NCBI RefSeq assembly: GCF_002358085.1
Contig: NZ_NTJD01000008.1
Location: 62,001 to 126,000 of the forward strand
From: Pseudothioclava arenosa
Lineage (GTDB): Bacteria > Pseudomonadota > Alphaproteobacteria > Rhodobacterales > Rhodobacteraceae
Length of the DNA stretch: 64,000 nucleotides
Direction: 5' to 3'
Shown here: positions 21,491-27,088 of the stretch, piece after piece
How positions within the stretch are numbered: the first letter of the stretch is position 1
Layout: every line of letters starts with the position of its first letter
Program-made: the position numbers and the translations under genes
Notes under the pieces: model-generated
The model's input: the letters and a program-made list of their open reading frames with translations, nothing else
What the model was told of the DNA's origin: nothing
Databases searched by the model: none

Positions 21491-21865
21491 TTATTCGGCT
21501 TTGGCTTTGTAGTTCGTGACTTCGGCGATACGGGCCGATTTGCCACGGCGCGAGCGGAGGTAGTACAGCTTGGCGCGGCGAACGCGGCCACGACGCACCA
21601 CTTCGATCGAGTCGATGTTGGTCGAGTAGAGCGGGAACACACGCTCCACGCCTTCGCCGAACGAGATCTTGCGAACGGTGAAGGAGGCGCCGATGGTGCT
21701 GCCGCCGTTGCGCGAGATGCAGACGCCTTCATACATCTGCACGCGCGAACGCGAGCCTTCGGTCACTTTGTAGCCGACGCGAACGGTGTCGCCGGCCTTG
21801 AAATCCGGGATGCTTTTGCCGAGGGCGGCGATCTGTTCCGCCTCGATTTGCGCGATCAGGTTCAT
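21491..21865 (-). CDS. rplS: 50S ribosomal protein L19
   Basis: 124 residues. The L19 core is present: [26 protein letters not shown]-type [31 protein letters not shown] and [14 protein letters not shown]. The protein sits at the 30S-50S interface. It is the first gene of an rplS-rpmE unit, separated from trmD by a terminator and a leader of about 180 nt. The 30-residue C-terminus is basic and family-typical. Confidence 0.96.
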
Positions 21866-22126: not shown

Positions 22127-22948
22127 CTATTTCCCCTTTTTCTGCTGGGAAATATGGGCCTCCCAGAGGTCGGGGCGGCGGGCGCGCGTGATTTCTTCGC
22201 TCATTTCGCGGCGCCAGCTCTCGATCTTGCCGTGATGGCCCGAAGTCAGCACTTCGGGAATGGCGCGGCCCTGCCATTCGGCGGGGCGGGTGTATTGCGG
22301 ATGCTCCAGCAGCCCGTGCGAAAAGCTTTCCTCTTCGGTCGAGGCCTGATTGCCCAGAACGCCCGGCAAAAGCCGGATCGTCGCGTCGATCAGCACCTGC
22401 GCCGCCAGCTCGCCGCCGGTCAGGACGAAATCGCCGATCGAGACCTCTTCGACCTGGTAATGCTCCAGCACACGCTCATCGACGCCCTCGAACCGGCCGC
22501 AGAGGATGGTCACGCCCTGCGCCCCGGCAAGGCGCCGCGCCATCGCCTGGTCAAAGGGCTTGCCGCGCGGCGACATGTAGAGGATCGGCCAGAGCGCGCG
22601 GTCGCGCGGCGTGCCGGCCTGCGCGGTCTCGATCGCGGCGCCGACCACATCGGGGCGCAGCACCATGCCCGCGCCGCCGCCGGCCGGGGTGTCATCGACA
22701 TTGCGATGCTTGCCGATGCCGAAATCGCGCAGCTGGATCGTGTCATAGCCCCATTTACCCTCGTCGAGCGCGCGGCCGGTCAGCGACAGGCCGAGGATGC
22801 CCGGGAAGGCCTCGGGGAAGAGGGTGATGATGCGCGCGCGCCAGGCGGCGGCGAGGCGTGCGGGTTCCTCCATCAGCACGCGCGGCTTGAGCGAGGCCGC
22901 GATCGACAGCCGCCCGTGCGAGCGCGAAGGCGTGGGCGCGTCGCTCAT
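22127..22948 (-). CDS. trmD: tRNA (guanine-37-N1)-methyltransferase
   Basis: 273-residue SPOUT-class knotted methyltransferase that methylates G37 next to the anticodon to prevent +1 frameshifting. Motifs seen: [49 protein letters not shown] and [11 protein letters not shown], followed by [17 protein letters not shown]. An N-terminal extension of about 35 residues precedes the usual start. The 4-nt overlap of its ATG with the rimM stop supports the longer form, although an internal Met26 is possible. It is the last gene of the rpsP operon. Confidence 0.96.
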
Positions 22949-23457
22949 TCCAGATCCTCGGGCGGGTCGGCGATGATGCGCCCGGCGGTCAGATCGACGG
23001 TGGGCACCACGGCCTTGGTGAAGGGCAGCAGGAGCGCCTGCCGACGGCCCGGCCCGAACACCTCGAGGATGTCACCCGCGCCGTAATTATGCACCGCGCG
23101 CACCGTGCCGAGCCGCGCGCCGCCGGTGTCCAGCACCTCCAGCCCGATCAGGTCGGTATGATAGAATTCGTCATCGGGCAGCGAGGGCAGCTTGTCGCGA
23201 TCGGCCCAGAGCGTCAGCCCGCGCAGCGCGTCGGCCTCTTCCTTGGTGGCGATGCCGCTCATGCGCGCGGCCAGCCCGCCCTTGACGCCGCGCGTCAGTT
23301 TCAGGGTGAAGCTGCGGCTGCCGTCTTCGGAGTAGAGCGGCGCGTAAGAGGTGATATCCTCGGGGGTGGAGCAGAAGCTTTTCAGCCGCACCTCGCCCTT
23401 GACGCCAAAGGCGCCCGCGATCGCGCCGACACAGATACGGTCTTGGTTGGTCATCAA
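22945..23457 (-). CDS. rimM: Ribosome maturation factor RimM
   Basis: 170 residues. RimM N-domain ([21 protein letters not shown]), then the PRC-barrel part ([21 protein letters not shown]...[35 protein letters not shown], abbreviated). It assists late 30S assembly around S19 and 16S rRNA helices. It overlaps bluB (upstream) and trmD (downstream) by 4 nt each, so all are translationally coupled. Confidence 0.95.
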
Positions 23458-24104
23458 CGTTGCTCCATCTCGGGCAGGCCCAGGCGCGGTTCCCAGCCGA
23501 GCTGTTCCAGCTCGGGGGTGGCGCTTTCGGTTTCGGGATAGCCGATGCAGAAATAGCCGATCAAGCGCCAGCTTGCGGGCACGTCAAGGTCGCGGGTCAG
23601 CCGCTCGGGGTCGAGGATCGAAACCCAGCCGAGCCCCACGCCCTCGGCGCGCAGCGCCAGCCACAACAGCGTGACCGCCGAGACCACCGAATAGGCGCGC
23701 ATCTCGGGCATGGTGCGGGCGCCAAGCCCCGCGCCCTTGGGCGTCGCCTCGTCGCAGAACACGGCCAGTTGCACCGGCGCGTCGCGCATCCCCGAGAGCT
23801 TCAGCCCGGCATAGATCGCGGCGCGCGAAAGCTCGCCCCCCGCGTGATATTCGGCGAGGGCCTCGGCATTCGCTCCCTCGAAATTGGCAAGCGCCGCGGC
23901 ACGGGCCGCGGCGCTGTCCACGGCCACCACGCGCCAGGGTTCGGACAAGCCGACCGAGGGCGCGGTGGCGAAAGCGGCAAGGCCACGGTCCAGTACATCG
24001 CCCGGCACCGGGTCGGGGCGGAAGCGGCGCACATCGCGCCGCCACGCCATCAACCGGGCCAGATCCTCGCGGAAGGCGGTGCTGAACCTTGGCGTCAAGC
24101 TCAC
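23454..24104 (-). CDS. bluB: 5,6-dimethylbenzimidazole synthase BluB
   Basis: 216-residue nitroreductase-fold FMN enzyme that cleaves reduced FMN to make 5,6-dimethylbenzimidazole, the lower ligand of vitamin B12. Family features include the N-terminal [12 protein letters not shown] (FMN-phosphate contacts), [50 protein letters not shown] and the GYFCIGYP end. Those segments distinguish BluB from ordinary nitroreductases. Its placement is unusual: it lies between rpsP and rimM with 4-nt (ATGA) overlaps on both sides. A general nitroreductase is the less likely alternative. Confidence 0.85.
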
Positions 24105-24457
24105 TCCTCGGCCGAAGCCTCGGCAGCTTTCGCGGCTTTCTCTTCGGCGCGAGCCTTGGCTTTGGCGCCCGGCACGGCTTTCTTCATGTTGGCGCGGGTC
24201 GCTTTTTCACGCACACCAGCGGCTTCGAGGAAGCGGGCCACGCGGTCGGTCGGCTGGGCGCCCTGAGCGAGCCAGTACTGCACGCGCTCCATGTTCATCT
24301 TGACGCGGTCTTCCGAGTCTTTGGCCAGCAGCGGGTTGTAGGTGCCCAGCTTCTCGATGAAGCGGCCATCGCGCGGCATGCGCGAGTCCGAGGCCACGAT
24401 CGAGTAGAACGGGCGCTTGTTCGAGCCACCACGGGCGAGGCGGATTTTCATAGCCAT
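24101..24457 (-). CDS. rpsP: 30S ribosomal protein S16
   Basis: 118 residues. [41 protein letters not shown] and the following [20 protein letters not shown] define S16. An Ala/Lys/Glu-rich tail of about 35 residues follows, common in alphaproteobacteria. It is the first gene of the rpsP-bluB-rimM-trmD overlap chain and lies 40 nt downstream of the chorismate mutase gene. Confidence 0.97.
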
Positions 24458-24497: not shown

Positions 24498-24800
24498 TCA
24501 TTTCTGATATTGCTCGTGGTGCCGGATCACTTCGGCAATCACGAAATTGAGGAATTTCTTGGCGAACTCGGGGTCGAGTCCGCTTTCTTCGGCCATCCGT
24601 TCGAGCCGGGCGATCTGGGTCGCTTCGCGGGTAGGGTCGGAGGGGGGAAGCTCGTGTTCGGCCTTGAGCTTGCCCACGGCCTGCGTGTGCGAAAAGCGTT
24701 CGGCCAGCGTGTAGATCAGCACCGCGTCGAGGCGGTCGATGCTATCGCGGTGTTCTTTCAGGATCTGGGCGGCGCGCGCCGTGGGGTTTTGCTCGGACAT
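24498..24800 (-). CDS. Chorismate mutase (AroQ class)
   Basis: 100-residue all-helical AroQ-type chorismate mutase, which converts chorismate to prephenate for Phe/Tyr synthesis. It shows the expected order of active-site helices: [20 protein letters not shown], then [21 protein letters not shown] and a C-terminal helix ending [13 protein letters not shown]. It is monofunctional, with no fused dehydratase. It starts 5 nt after the ffh stop, so it is co-transcribed with ffh and probably with rpsP. Confidence 0.9.
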
Positions 24801-24805
24801 GGCGC

Positions 24806-26308
24806 TTATTTCTTCTTGCCGAGGCCCGAGAGCCCGCCCAGACCGCCAAGACCCGGCAGGCCGCCCATGCCACCCATGCCGGGCAGCTTGCCGCCCATCG
24901 CCTTGGCGGCGGCTTCGACCTCGGCCGGATCCATGTTCTCCAGATCGGGCATGCCGCCCTTGCCGCCCATCATCCGCATCGCCTGCTTGAGCATGCCGCC
25001 TTTGCCCATCTTCGACACTTTCTTCATCGTGTCGGCCATCTGGCGGTGCATTTTCAGCAGACGGTTGAGTTCCTGCACATCGAGGCCCGCACCGGCGGCG
25101 ATGCGCTTCTTGCGCGACGCCTGCAGGAGCGCGGGATTGGCGCGCTCTTTCTTGGTCATCGAGTTGATCAGCGCGATCTGGTGACGCAGCAGCAGGTCGT
25201 CCATGCCCGCGGCCTCGGCCTGCTTGGCGTATTTCGACATGCCCGGCATCATGCCCATCACGCCCTGCATGCCGCCCATCTTGAGCATCTGCTCAAGCTG
25301 CTGGCGCATGTCGTTCATGTTGAACAGACCCTTCTGGAAGCGCTTGGCCATGCGTTCGGCCTGCTCGCGCTCCAGCGTCTCTTGTGCCTTTTCCACGAGG
25401 GCGACGATGTCGCCCATGCCGAGGATGCGGCCCGCGATGCGCTCGGCCTCGAAGGTTTCGAGCGCGTCCATCTTTTCGCCGAGGCCGACGAAGCGGATCG
25501 GCTTGCCGGTGACCGCGCGCATCGAGAGCGCAGCACCGCCGCGCCCGTCGCCGTCCATCCGGGTCAGCACGACGCCTGAGATCCCAACCTTGTCCTCGAA
25601 TTCCTGCGCCACATCGACGGCGACCTGACCGGTCAGGCCGTCGACCACCAGCAGGGTCTCGCGCGGGCTGACCGCGTCGCGCACCTGCTGAACCTCGGAC
25701 ATCAGCACTTCGTCGATATGAAGACGGCCCGCGGTGTCGAGCATGTAGACATCATAGCCGCCGAGCGTCGCCTGTTGCTTGGCGCGCTTGGCGATCTGCA
25801 CGGCGCTCTCGCCCTTGACGATCGGCAGCGTGTCGATGCCGATCTGGGTGCCGAGGATCGCGAGCTGCTCCATTGCCGCCGGGCGGTAGATGTCGAGCGA
25901 GGCCATCAGCACGCGCTTGCCCTGCTTTTCCTTCAGGCGCTTGGCAAGCTTGGCGGTGGTGGTGGTTTTCCCCGAGCCCTGCAGGCCGACCATCAGGATC
26001 GGCGCGGGCGGGTTGTCGATTTTCAGCGCGTCGGCCTCGCCTTCGCCGCGCAGCATGTCGATCAGCGCGTCATGGACGATCTTGACGACCTGCTGGCCGG
26101 GCGTGATCGACTTGGTGACGGCCGAGCCGGTGGCCTTGGCCTCGACCGCCTTGATGAAGTCGCGCGCGACCGGCAGCGAAACGTCGGCTTCGAGAAGCGC
26201 CACGCGCACTTCGCGCAGCGCGGTTTTCACGTCATCGGCCGAGAGAGCGCCCTGTTTCGTCAGGCGATCGAAAACGCCGCCAAGGCGTTCTGAAAGGCTC
26301 TCGAACAT
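24806..26308 (-). CDS. ffh: Signal recognition particle protein Ffh
   Basis: 500-residue SRP54-family GTPase that binds 4.5S RNA and signal sequences and targets ribosomes to the membrane. N domain about residues 1-90. G domain with the P-loop GLQGSGKTTTTAKLA, DIYRPAAMEQL, DTAGRLHIDE, TRMDGDGRGGAAL and GLGEKMDALE. Methionine-rich M domain from about residue 300. The C-terminus is an unusually Gly/Met/Leu-rich tail. It is preceded by a GGAGG ribosome-binding site and a structured leader. Confidence 0.97.
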   Translation of the reverse strand: MFESLSERLGGVFDRLTKQGALSADDVKTALREVRVALLEADVSLPVARDFIKAVEAKATGSAVTKSITPGQQVVKIVHDALIDMLRGEGEADALKIDNPPAPILMVGLQGSGKTTTTAKLAKRLKEKQGKRVLMASLDIYRPAAMEQLAILGTQIGIDTLPIVKGESAVQIAKRAKQQATLGGYDVYMLDTAGRLHIDEVLMSEVQQVRDAVSPRETLLVVDGLTGQVAVDVAQEFEDKVGISGVVLTRMDGDGRGGAALSMRAVTGKPIRFVGLGEKMDALETFEAERIAGRILGMGDIVALVEKAQETLEREQAERMAKRFQKGLFNMNDMRQQLEQMLKMGGMQGVMGMMPGMSKYAKQAEAAGMDDLLLRHQIALINSMTKKERANPALLQASRKKRIAAGAGLDVQELNRLLKMHRQMADTMKKVSKMGKGGMLKQAMRMMGGKGGMPDLENMDPAEVEAAAKAMGGKLPGMGGMGGLPGLGGLGGLSGLGKKK

Positions 26309-26358
26309 GGCGCACCTCCATGCGGTTGCCGGACGGACCGGCGGAAAAACGACAAGCG

Positions 26359-26433
26359 CACCAGTGGGCGCAACGCGCTGACTGGTGGCGATCCCCCCGA
26401 ACGGGTTGGGACCGGAGGGATTCGGACCTCCGG
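26359..26433 (-). promoter_or_regulatory. Three-hairpin structured leader upstream of ffh
   Basis: On the strand read toward ffh, three hairpins follow one another. H1 is CCGGAGG/CCTCCGG (26412-26433, 8-nt loop). H2 is CCC-GTTC-GGG (26396-26405). H3 is a perfect CACCAGT/ACTGGTG outer stem with an inner GCGC/GCGC stem closed by a 3-nt loop (26359-26387). They occupy most of the ~130-nt leader predicted from the promoter at 26446-26474. No protein frame is convincing here, and the conserved 4.5S RNA tetraloop motif is absent. Confidence 0.5.
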
Positions 26434-26445
26434 GAAATCTGGGCT

Positions 26446-26474
26446 GCTATAAGAAAAAAGGCCCGCGGCGTCAA
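26446..26474 (-). promoter_or_regulatory. Predicted ffh promoter overlapping the azoR terminator
   Basis: Minus strand: -35 TTGACG (26474-26469), 17-nt spacer, -10 TATAGC (26451-26446). The -35 box is the loop of the upstream terminator, and the U-tract of that terminator lies in the spacer. Confidence 0.6.
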
Positions 26475-26483
26475 CCACGGGCC
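26453..26483 (-). terminator. Rho-independent terminator after azoR
   Basis: Minus strand: stem GGCCCGTGG/CCGCGGGCC (26483-26475 with 26468-26460), one mismatch, 6-nt loop TTGACG, followed by a run of six T. It lies 33 nt after the azoR stop. Confidence 0.85.
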
Positions 26484-26515: not shown

Positions 26516-27088
26516 TCAGGCGGCCAGATCCGCGATCTGCGCTTCGGCGCGGGCCAGAGCGGCGGCCTCGTCGACCGACACGCCTTCGGCGGTCACGAAG
26601 CTCACATCGGTGATGCCGATGAAGGCCAGAACCTGCTTGAGATAGGCCGAGGCGAGGTCATAGGCCGAGCCCTGCGGCACGCCGCCCGAGGCGTAGGCCA
26701 CGATCACGCGCTTCGGGCCGAGCAGGCCTTCGGGGCCGGCTTCGGTGTAGCGGAAGCTCTCGCCAACGCGGCAGATCTGGTCGAGCCAGGCCTTCAGCGG
26801 CGCGGTGACGCCGAAGTTGTAGACCGGCGCGCCGATCACCAGCACATCAGCGGCGCGGATTTCGTTAATCAGCGTGTCCGACAGCGCGAGCGTCTCTTTC
26901 TGTTCGTCGCTGCGGTCTTCGGCGGGGGTGTAGGCCGCGCCGATCCAGGTGCCGTCGATCAGCGGGATCGTGGTGGTGTCGCGGGTGGTCACGTCGCCGC
27001 CGAGCTTTTCGACGATATGGTCGGTCAGCTTGGTGGTGACCGAGTTCGGGCCTTTGATCGAAGAGGTGACGCGCAGGATCTTGGTCAT
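26516..27088 (-). CDS. azoR: FMN-dependent NADH-azoreductase
   Basis: 190-residue flavodoxin-fold protein of the AzoR (acyl carrier protein phosphodiesterase-like) family. The phosphate-binding start is VTSSIKGPNSVTTKL. VLVIGAPVYNFGVTAPLKAW and YASGGVPQGSAYDLASAYLKQVLAFIGITDV are diagnostic. It reduces azo and quinone compounds with NADH and probably protects against electrophiles. ATG 27088 has AGGAG at good spacing; the much longer open frame upstream runs antisense through the LysR gene. It is divergent from that LysR gene, a classic regulator-target arrangement. Confidence 0.92.
   Translation of the reverse strand: MTKILRVTSSIKGPNSVTTKLTDHIVEKLGGDVTTRDTTTIPLIDGTWIGAAYTPAEDRSDEQKETLALSDTLINEIRAADVLVIGAPVYNFGVTAPLKAWLDQICRVGESFRYTEAGPEGLLGPKRVIVAYASGGVPQGSAYDLASAYLKQVLAFIGITDVSFVTAEGVSVDEAAALARAEAQIADLAA

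Follow-up and report, generated by a model that had tools for sequence, protein, structure and literature searches.

What does the structured RNA leader in front of ffh, the gene for the signal recognition particle (SRP) protein, do for the genes behind it, and is ffh the gene to which it belongs? The question arises from a locus in a 64,000-nucleotide stretch of DNA from Pseudothioclava arenosa (Rhodobacteraceae), hereafter the window. On its minus strand, an azoR-like gene is followed by a promoter, three hairpins (P1, P2, and P3), and a run of genes, ffh-(chorismate mutase)-rpsP-rimM-trmD-rplS, that probably form one transcript (Table 1). The core of the leader, consisting of P3 and its flanks, is already known: it is the Rfam family RF01793, the "ffh motif" (here, the motif), which was described in 2009 (Meyer et al., PMC2704228).

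Table 1. Features of the leader locus, in order of transcription
Feature	Position	Strand	Basis or remark
azoR-like flavodoxin-fold gene, 5' of the leader	26516..27088	-	Pfam Flavodoxin_2 2.8e-39, FMN_red 1.2e-11; name azoR as labeled in the original prediction; start codon read from the sequence
Terminator-like hairpin and T-run	26451..26483	-	Scan and sequence; loop 26469-26474 is the -35
-35 hexamer, TTGACG (six-base terminator loop)	26469..26474	-	Position conserved in family loci
-10 hexamer, TATAGC	26446..26451	-	17-nt spacer from the -35
P1, CCGGAGG/CCTCCGG	26412..26433	-	7 pairs
P2, GGTCCC/GGGATC	26390..26413	-	Outside the Rfam structure
RF01793 "ffh" match, full length (1-52 of 52)	26351..26402	-	62.4 bits, threshold 35
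P3	26358..26389	-	7-bp stem, internal loop, inner GCGC stem
GGAGG, probable Shine-Dalgarno of ffh	26315..26319	-	Read from the sequence
ffh (SRP54 protein, 500 aa)	24806..26308	-	Family match
Chorismate mutase type II	24498..24800	-	Family match
rpsP, ribosomal protein S16	24101..24457	-	Family match
rimM (name assumed)	22945..23454	-	Open reading frame located
trmD (name assumed)	22127..22948	-	Open reading frame located
rplS, ribosomal protein L19 (name assumed)	21491..21865	-	Open reading frame located

Promoter of the leader

The original prediction held that the loop of the azoR terminator is itself the -35 hexamer, that the U-tract lies in the 17-nt spacer, and that TATAGC is the -10 hexamer. 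This was borne out to the base. The arms of the terminator stem, GGCCCGTGG (26483-26475) and CCGCGGGCC (26468-26460), enclose TTGACG, while the spacer (26468-26452) contains the 3' arm along with the T-run, which enters the -10 hexamer by one base. Transcription would be expected to start near 26439, just 5' of P1. The promoter was absent from the output of a general promoter scan, which reported one site elsewhere, because TATAGC does not have the T that the scan required at position 6. The call rests instead on comparison across genomes. When we required a -35 with five or six matches to TTGACA, a spacing of 16 to 19 nt, a -10-like hexamer, and a score of at least 8 of 12, 45 of 58 Rhodobacteraceae loci had a promoter, placed 63 to 79 nt before the motif, compared with 20 of 1160 shuffles.

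The nesting of promoter and terminator is another matter. By eye, the same arrangement with altered stem letters is seen in two close relatives of the window (L021, from the same genus, and L016). A scripted search for a nested hairpin with at least five T in its tail returned 3 of the 58 loci, namely the window and two others in which the hairpin sits upstream of the -35. Since a nested terminator was seen in no loci but the window and these two relatives, the nesting is local and does not belong to the element as such; the promoter is widespread in the family. Sub-threshold Rfam matches to Thr_leader, suhB, and anti-hemB were set aside, since they fall on the azoR terminator and the promoter and leave the hairpins of the leader uncovered.

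Structure of the leader

Three hairpins had been proposed 3' of the promoter, the last with a 7-bp stem and an inner GCGC stem. They are real, and their conservation in close relatives was confirmed by compensatory changes in P1, P2, and P3 across 58 aligned loci. The minimum-energy fold of 26440-26345 consists of the three hairpins (z -3.04; 1 of 200 shuffles equally stable), and folding was less remarkable when the stretch was extended to the ATG (z -1.62; 15 of 200). Over P1-P3 together, 94% of cells pair in the 58 Rhodobacteraceae loci and 10 of 21 pairs carry changes on both sides; no slid control alignment approached the true pairing. P1 is a family-level covarying hairpin, with 97.5% of cells paired and both-side changes in three pairs. 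For P2, the corresponding values are 98.9% and two of six pairs, and the minimum-energy fold gives it an inner stem of its own. Two G residues are common to P1 and P2, so that their end pairs compete. A G.U pair in P2 of 58/58 loci and a U.G at one P3 pair in 23/58 would be mismatches on the opposite strand, which places the structure on the ffh-sense strand.

The third hairpin is conserved far beyond the family. Among 69 class-wide sequences, 9 of the 10 P3 pairs show both-side changes, and slid controls fall far lower. P3 of the window has a C.C mismatch (26380/26366), an A.C beside it (26379/26367), and one bulged base on the 5' side. What might be taken for a 2x2 internal loop is in fact the C.C mismatch, found in 69/69 sequences, next to one variable position, which is A.C in 46/69, A.A in 5/69, and one of five standard pairs (C-G, G.U, U-A, G-C, and A-U) in 18/69. 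Three stable hairpins at a 5' end could, with no ligand involved, simply stabilize the mRNA. We regard this as the most improbable of the readings weighed here, given that an invariant mismatch and a core conserved across the class point to recognition and not to stability alone.

P2 reaches into several lineages, where it is a covarying hairpin that is common but not universal. A P2-like stem of 5 bp that stops exactly 2 nt short of P3 was present in 43 of the 69 model sequences, compared with 453 of 3450 shuffles. Among 53 named loci, 16 had such a stem, compared with 231 of 2650 shuffles. These 53 scored best among 57 full-length sense-strand matches, of which four weaker ones were left out, and one of the 53 (L146) shares its contig with a member of the 69-sequence set. 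P2-like stems comprise 28 distinct arm pairs. In the 69-sequence set, stems ending 3, 4, 5, and 6 nt before P3 numbered 43, 42, 33, and 36, as would arise from longer stems, and stems that stop 0 and 1 nt short of it numbered 1 and 4. As far as we have searched the literature, the extension of the element by P1 and P2 is new; Rfam models P3 alone.

Two simple switches were considered and dropped. In the window, CCTCC in the 3' arm of P1 is complementary to GGAGG and might act on the Shine-Dalgarno sequence by pairing with it, but most relatives have CTTCC and, by eye, no generally matching leader site. Likewise, P3 appeared terminator-like in the window scan and might have served as a transcription attenuator, but its U-tract, judged by eye, is not conserved. 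As a separate observation, a single genome (L083) seems by eye to have a second copy of the 3' part of P3, together with its flank, directly downstream.

Distribution of the motif and the genes behind it

RF01793 exceeded its threshold in 65 of 101 genomes of relatives and was matched in 57 of 61 genomes of the window's family. In a draw of 289 genomes from the class, 80 held a match and 64 passed the threshold. Our own covariance model (R1), built from the 69 sequences, matched 159 of the same 289 genomes. In a phylum-wide draw of 299 genomes it matched 77, all of them in the window's class.

We examined which genes follow the motif on the same strand in 74 loci from distinct genomes, selected for the presence of the motif and for a downstream reach of 5.9 kb or more (of 81 candidate loci, 7 fell short and were left out). 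The S16 gene followed in 73 loci, Ffh in 72, RimM in 70, TrmD in 66, and L19 in 58. The element thus stands 5' of an operon encoding a ribosomal protein, and rpsP is the gene least often missing, within loci that reach about 6 kb of operons that may be longer. Between RF01793 and the ATG of ffh lie 42 nt in the window and 10 to 284 nt across loci, with 10-20 nt from motif to start codon in several lineages. In ten Rhodobacteraceae loci, ffh is separated from the chorismate mutase or S16 gene by 1.2-3.7 kb; open reading frames picked there by length and third-base G+C all lie on the same strand, often overlapping, so it is plausible that rpsP is still cotranscribed. In L067, L070, L078, L069, and others, tandem frames that by eye look acetyltransferase-like, often overlapping and on the same strand, lie between ffh and the chorismate mutase gene. 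Two loci from small genomes (L128 and L130), which we guess to be SAR11-like, have the order ffh-rpsP-trmD-rplS with no detectable rimM.

Where ffh is lost or apart from rpsP

Given its position, the leader was first proposed to serve autoregulation or to be a short stable RNA. In the first case Ffh, perhaps without 4.5S RNA, would bind the leader and repress its own synthesis. Autoregulation by Ffh has also been published as a possibility (PMC2704228), and it draws on the presence of ffh downstream in 72 of the 74 loci, adjoining the motif in most. A more informative comparison comes from genomes in which ffh and rpsP have parted. In the PS1/OCS116 clade, the motif stands directly before rpsP, both in G108, G213, and G294 (RF01793 scores of 38.5, 41.2, and 48.7 bits) and in L146-L149; rimM, trmD, and rplS lie behind rpsP where the contig extends. 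Taking L146 as the same contig as G213, we count six PS1 genomes (G108, G213, G294, L147, L148, and L149), and the ffh model had no match in any of them. In the first three, which are 95-97% complete, searches found no SRP GTPase (14/14 controls positive) and no 4.5S RNA (11/14 controls positive); the genomes of L147-L149 may be partial. Because R1 holds three PS1 sequences, its scores in this clade are partly circular, while those of RF01793 are not. The loci L150, L157, and L160 (Parvibaculum, Rhodobiaceae), which we take to be from relatives of PS1, have the order motif-ffh-rpsP. If the whole SRP has been lost in PS1-clade bacteria, which presumably are free-living, that in itself would be remarkable.

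Two further lineages have the motif at rpsP with ffh elsewhere. In a genome of the window's family (G015), the motif (41.9 bits) precedes chorismate mutase-rpsP and ffh lies on another contig, where the nearby motif hits were sub-threshold and on the opposite strand (E of 0.33 and 2.2). In G143, a motif of 22.1 bits (E of 2.6e-4) precedes rpsP-rimM-trmD-rplS; about 70 nt separate the end of P3 from rpsP, and no motif was found at ffh, on another contig. As in the PS1 clade, rpsP is the first gene behind the motif in G143. We also noticed by eye that ffh of G143 sits behind a gcrA-like gene. A weak hairpin with the same core lies directly before rpsP in two small sister genomes, G126 and G225, scoring 11.7 and 12.2 bits, which are not significant alone; these hairpins lend the link to rpsP weak backing. 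In G225, the M domain of Ffh (signal-peptide-binding) stands alone in a frame of 178 residues that lacks the GTPase part (L294 961-1497), and no M domain was found in its sister.

These genomes argue against Ffh autoregulation as the general function of the leader: the motif is kept in six genomes without detectable Ffh, and in G015 and G143, where ffh lies elsewhere, it was not found at that gene. Were Ffh to bind the leader in the way it binds 4.5S RNA, some likeness between the two RNAs would be expected. A search of the leader with the SRP RNA model (RF00169) gave no match even with E allowed to reach 1, so that the leader is without a recognizable SRP RNA domain. The authors of the 2009 description likewise noted that the motif does not resemble the portion of 4.5S RNA to which Ffh binds (PMC2704228). 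We therefore consider Ffh a very unlikely ligand.

The link of the motif to rpsP is well supported by these comparisons of gene order, yet other genomes are neutral or count against it. In at least one (G080), ffh and rpsP are apart and the motif was found at neither; this genome and G143 were chosen by eye among the S16 and ffh matches listed, and the census of separated genomes is therefore partial. In G261, the motif precedes a shortened ffh, rpsP is absent at the locus, and S16 was found nowhere in the assembly; the cut ffh together with the missing S16 suggests an assembly fault. Finally, G112, G180, G263, and G309 (90-97% complete) contain S16 but gave no match to the ffh model, no motif before rpsP, and no 4.5S RNA. 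More broadly, S16 was found in 283 of the 289 class genomes and the motif, by R1, in 159, so rpsP often does without it.

Alternative ligands and a possible small RNA

Another product of the operon (L19, RimM, or TrmD), or a general factor of translation or growth rate, could bind the same leader. The genes for RimM (70/74), TrmD (66/74), and L19 (58/74) usually lie behind rpsP, and Firmicutes are known to have a leader for L19 (PMC7247131). However, RimM was not found in L128 and L130, where ffh, rpsP, and trmD are present, and the genes for TrmD or L19 are often not within 6 kb of the motif. We judge a ligand of this kind to be unlikely, though worth keeping in mind.

A different possibility is that the element is a separate small RNA, transcribed from a promoter of its own, with its 3' end at P3 or behind it, and acting in trans. 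RF01793 is typed as sRNA in Rfam, the window scan reported P3 as terminator-like, and metatranscriptome studies of small RNAs have detected transcripts of the motif, according to the 2009 paper (PMC2704228). In addition, a second promoter-like site behind P3 was found in 24 of 56 family loci, compared with 62 of 2800 shuffles (2 of the 58 loci were dropped for want of a start codon). The site consists of TTG, a spacing of mostly 17 nt, and a TA-rich hexamer, lies about 47-103 nt behind the start of the motif, and often has its -35 overlapping the conserved 3' flank of RF01793 (for example, in L010 and L001). No such site was found behind P3 in the window. Against a separate RNA, the U-tract behind P3 is by eye short and variable, several lineages with gaps of 10-20 nt from motif to start codon leave no space for a second promoter, and in Mesorhizobium the RF01793 region belongs to a 441-nt stretch in RNA-seq data that is longer than the element (PMC5596092). 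The lasting link to one operon favors action in cis over a trans-acting small RNA, which we hold to be decidedly unlikely, although a short RNA is possible in lineages with the second promoter-like site.

A proposed regulatory leader of the rpsP operon

The reading that we favor, with a rough probability of just under one-half (about 0.48), is that the leader is an autoregulatory RNA of the ffh-rpsP-rimM-trmD-rplS operon and that S16 is its likeliest ligand. We infer a regulatory role, the binding of a protein, S16 as that protein, and control at the level of translation. S16 is preferred since rpsP, the most constant partner, is the gene that the motif stays with, and a leader for S16 has been predicted in Flavobacteria; together these make autogenous control by S16 the preferred conjecture. 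Under this scheme, a conserved promoter of the vegetative type would drive transcription from a point immediately 5' of P1. In the transcript, P1 and P2 would fold beside P3, the putative recognition hairpin, which carries the invariant C.C mismatch. Excess protein encoded by the operon would then bind P2/P3 in the vicinity of the first gene's ribosome-binding site, thereby lowering expression of the operon. The short distances from motif to ffh in several lineages suggest that such a protein could block the ribosome.

Several observations weigh against S16. In 72 of the 74 loci, ffh lies between the motif and rpsP or beside the motif and may there be a target of the regulation; the second promoter-like site would bypass the leader in 24 of 56 loci; and any of RimM, TrmD, and L19, encoded behind rpsP in most loci, could be the ligand. 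Furthermore, the leader had no significant sequence similarity to Escherichia coli 16S or 23S rRNA in 16 comparisons, made at the sequence level with four query strings on both strands. The lowest p values came from the antisense strand, at 0.055 for the consensus core (16S 736-763) and 0.115 for the window hairpin (16S 369-389, which we take to lie near helix 15), and these similarities were set aside.

The position of ffh between the leader and rpsP would tie synthesis of the SRP protein to the supply of a ribosomal protein. It is tempting, if more tentative, to state the S16 reading in full: the "ffh motif" would be an autoregulatory leader of alphaproteobacterial rpsP, bound by S16 at P2-P3, to which SRP supply has been tied secondarily and which survives loss of the SRP. 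If so, one Rfam family changes its meaning and a second phylum gains an S16-type leader. The link between ribosome and SRP supply would become testable, and Ffh-less bacteria that keep the motif would provide a natural test. As far as the literature was searched, the reassignment is new. No paper assigning the motif to rpsP or S16 was found in open-access titles, beginnings of abstracts, and text passages; one passage of PMC3264578 and none of PMC3815206 contained words for the SRP. Regulation of the rpsP/trmD operon has been called unknown (PMC10931766).

Comparison with known leaders

The window element and RF01793 share the same P3, located 5' of ffh in the window, and the two descriptions differ in three respects. 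The first 15 positions of RF01793 are unpaired in Rfam, and here several lineages have P2 in that place. Its "bulge" is, in the present alignment, the C.C mismatch together with a covarying position. Its adjacency to ffh is not universal, since the motif lies at rpsP, not at ffh, where the two genes are separated. The closest counterpart by gene context is the S16 leader predicted in Flavobacteria (PMC7247131), which is likewise a leader-type RNA before rpsP(-rimM) with S16 as its predicted ligand. That leader belongs to another phylum, and the likeness noted here is one of gene context. In the leader described here, ffh usually stands between the RNA and rpsP.
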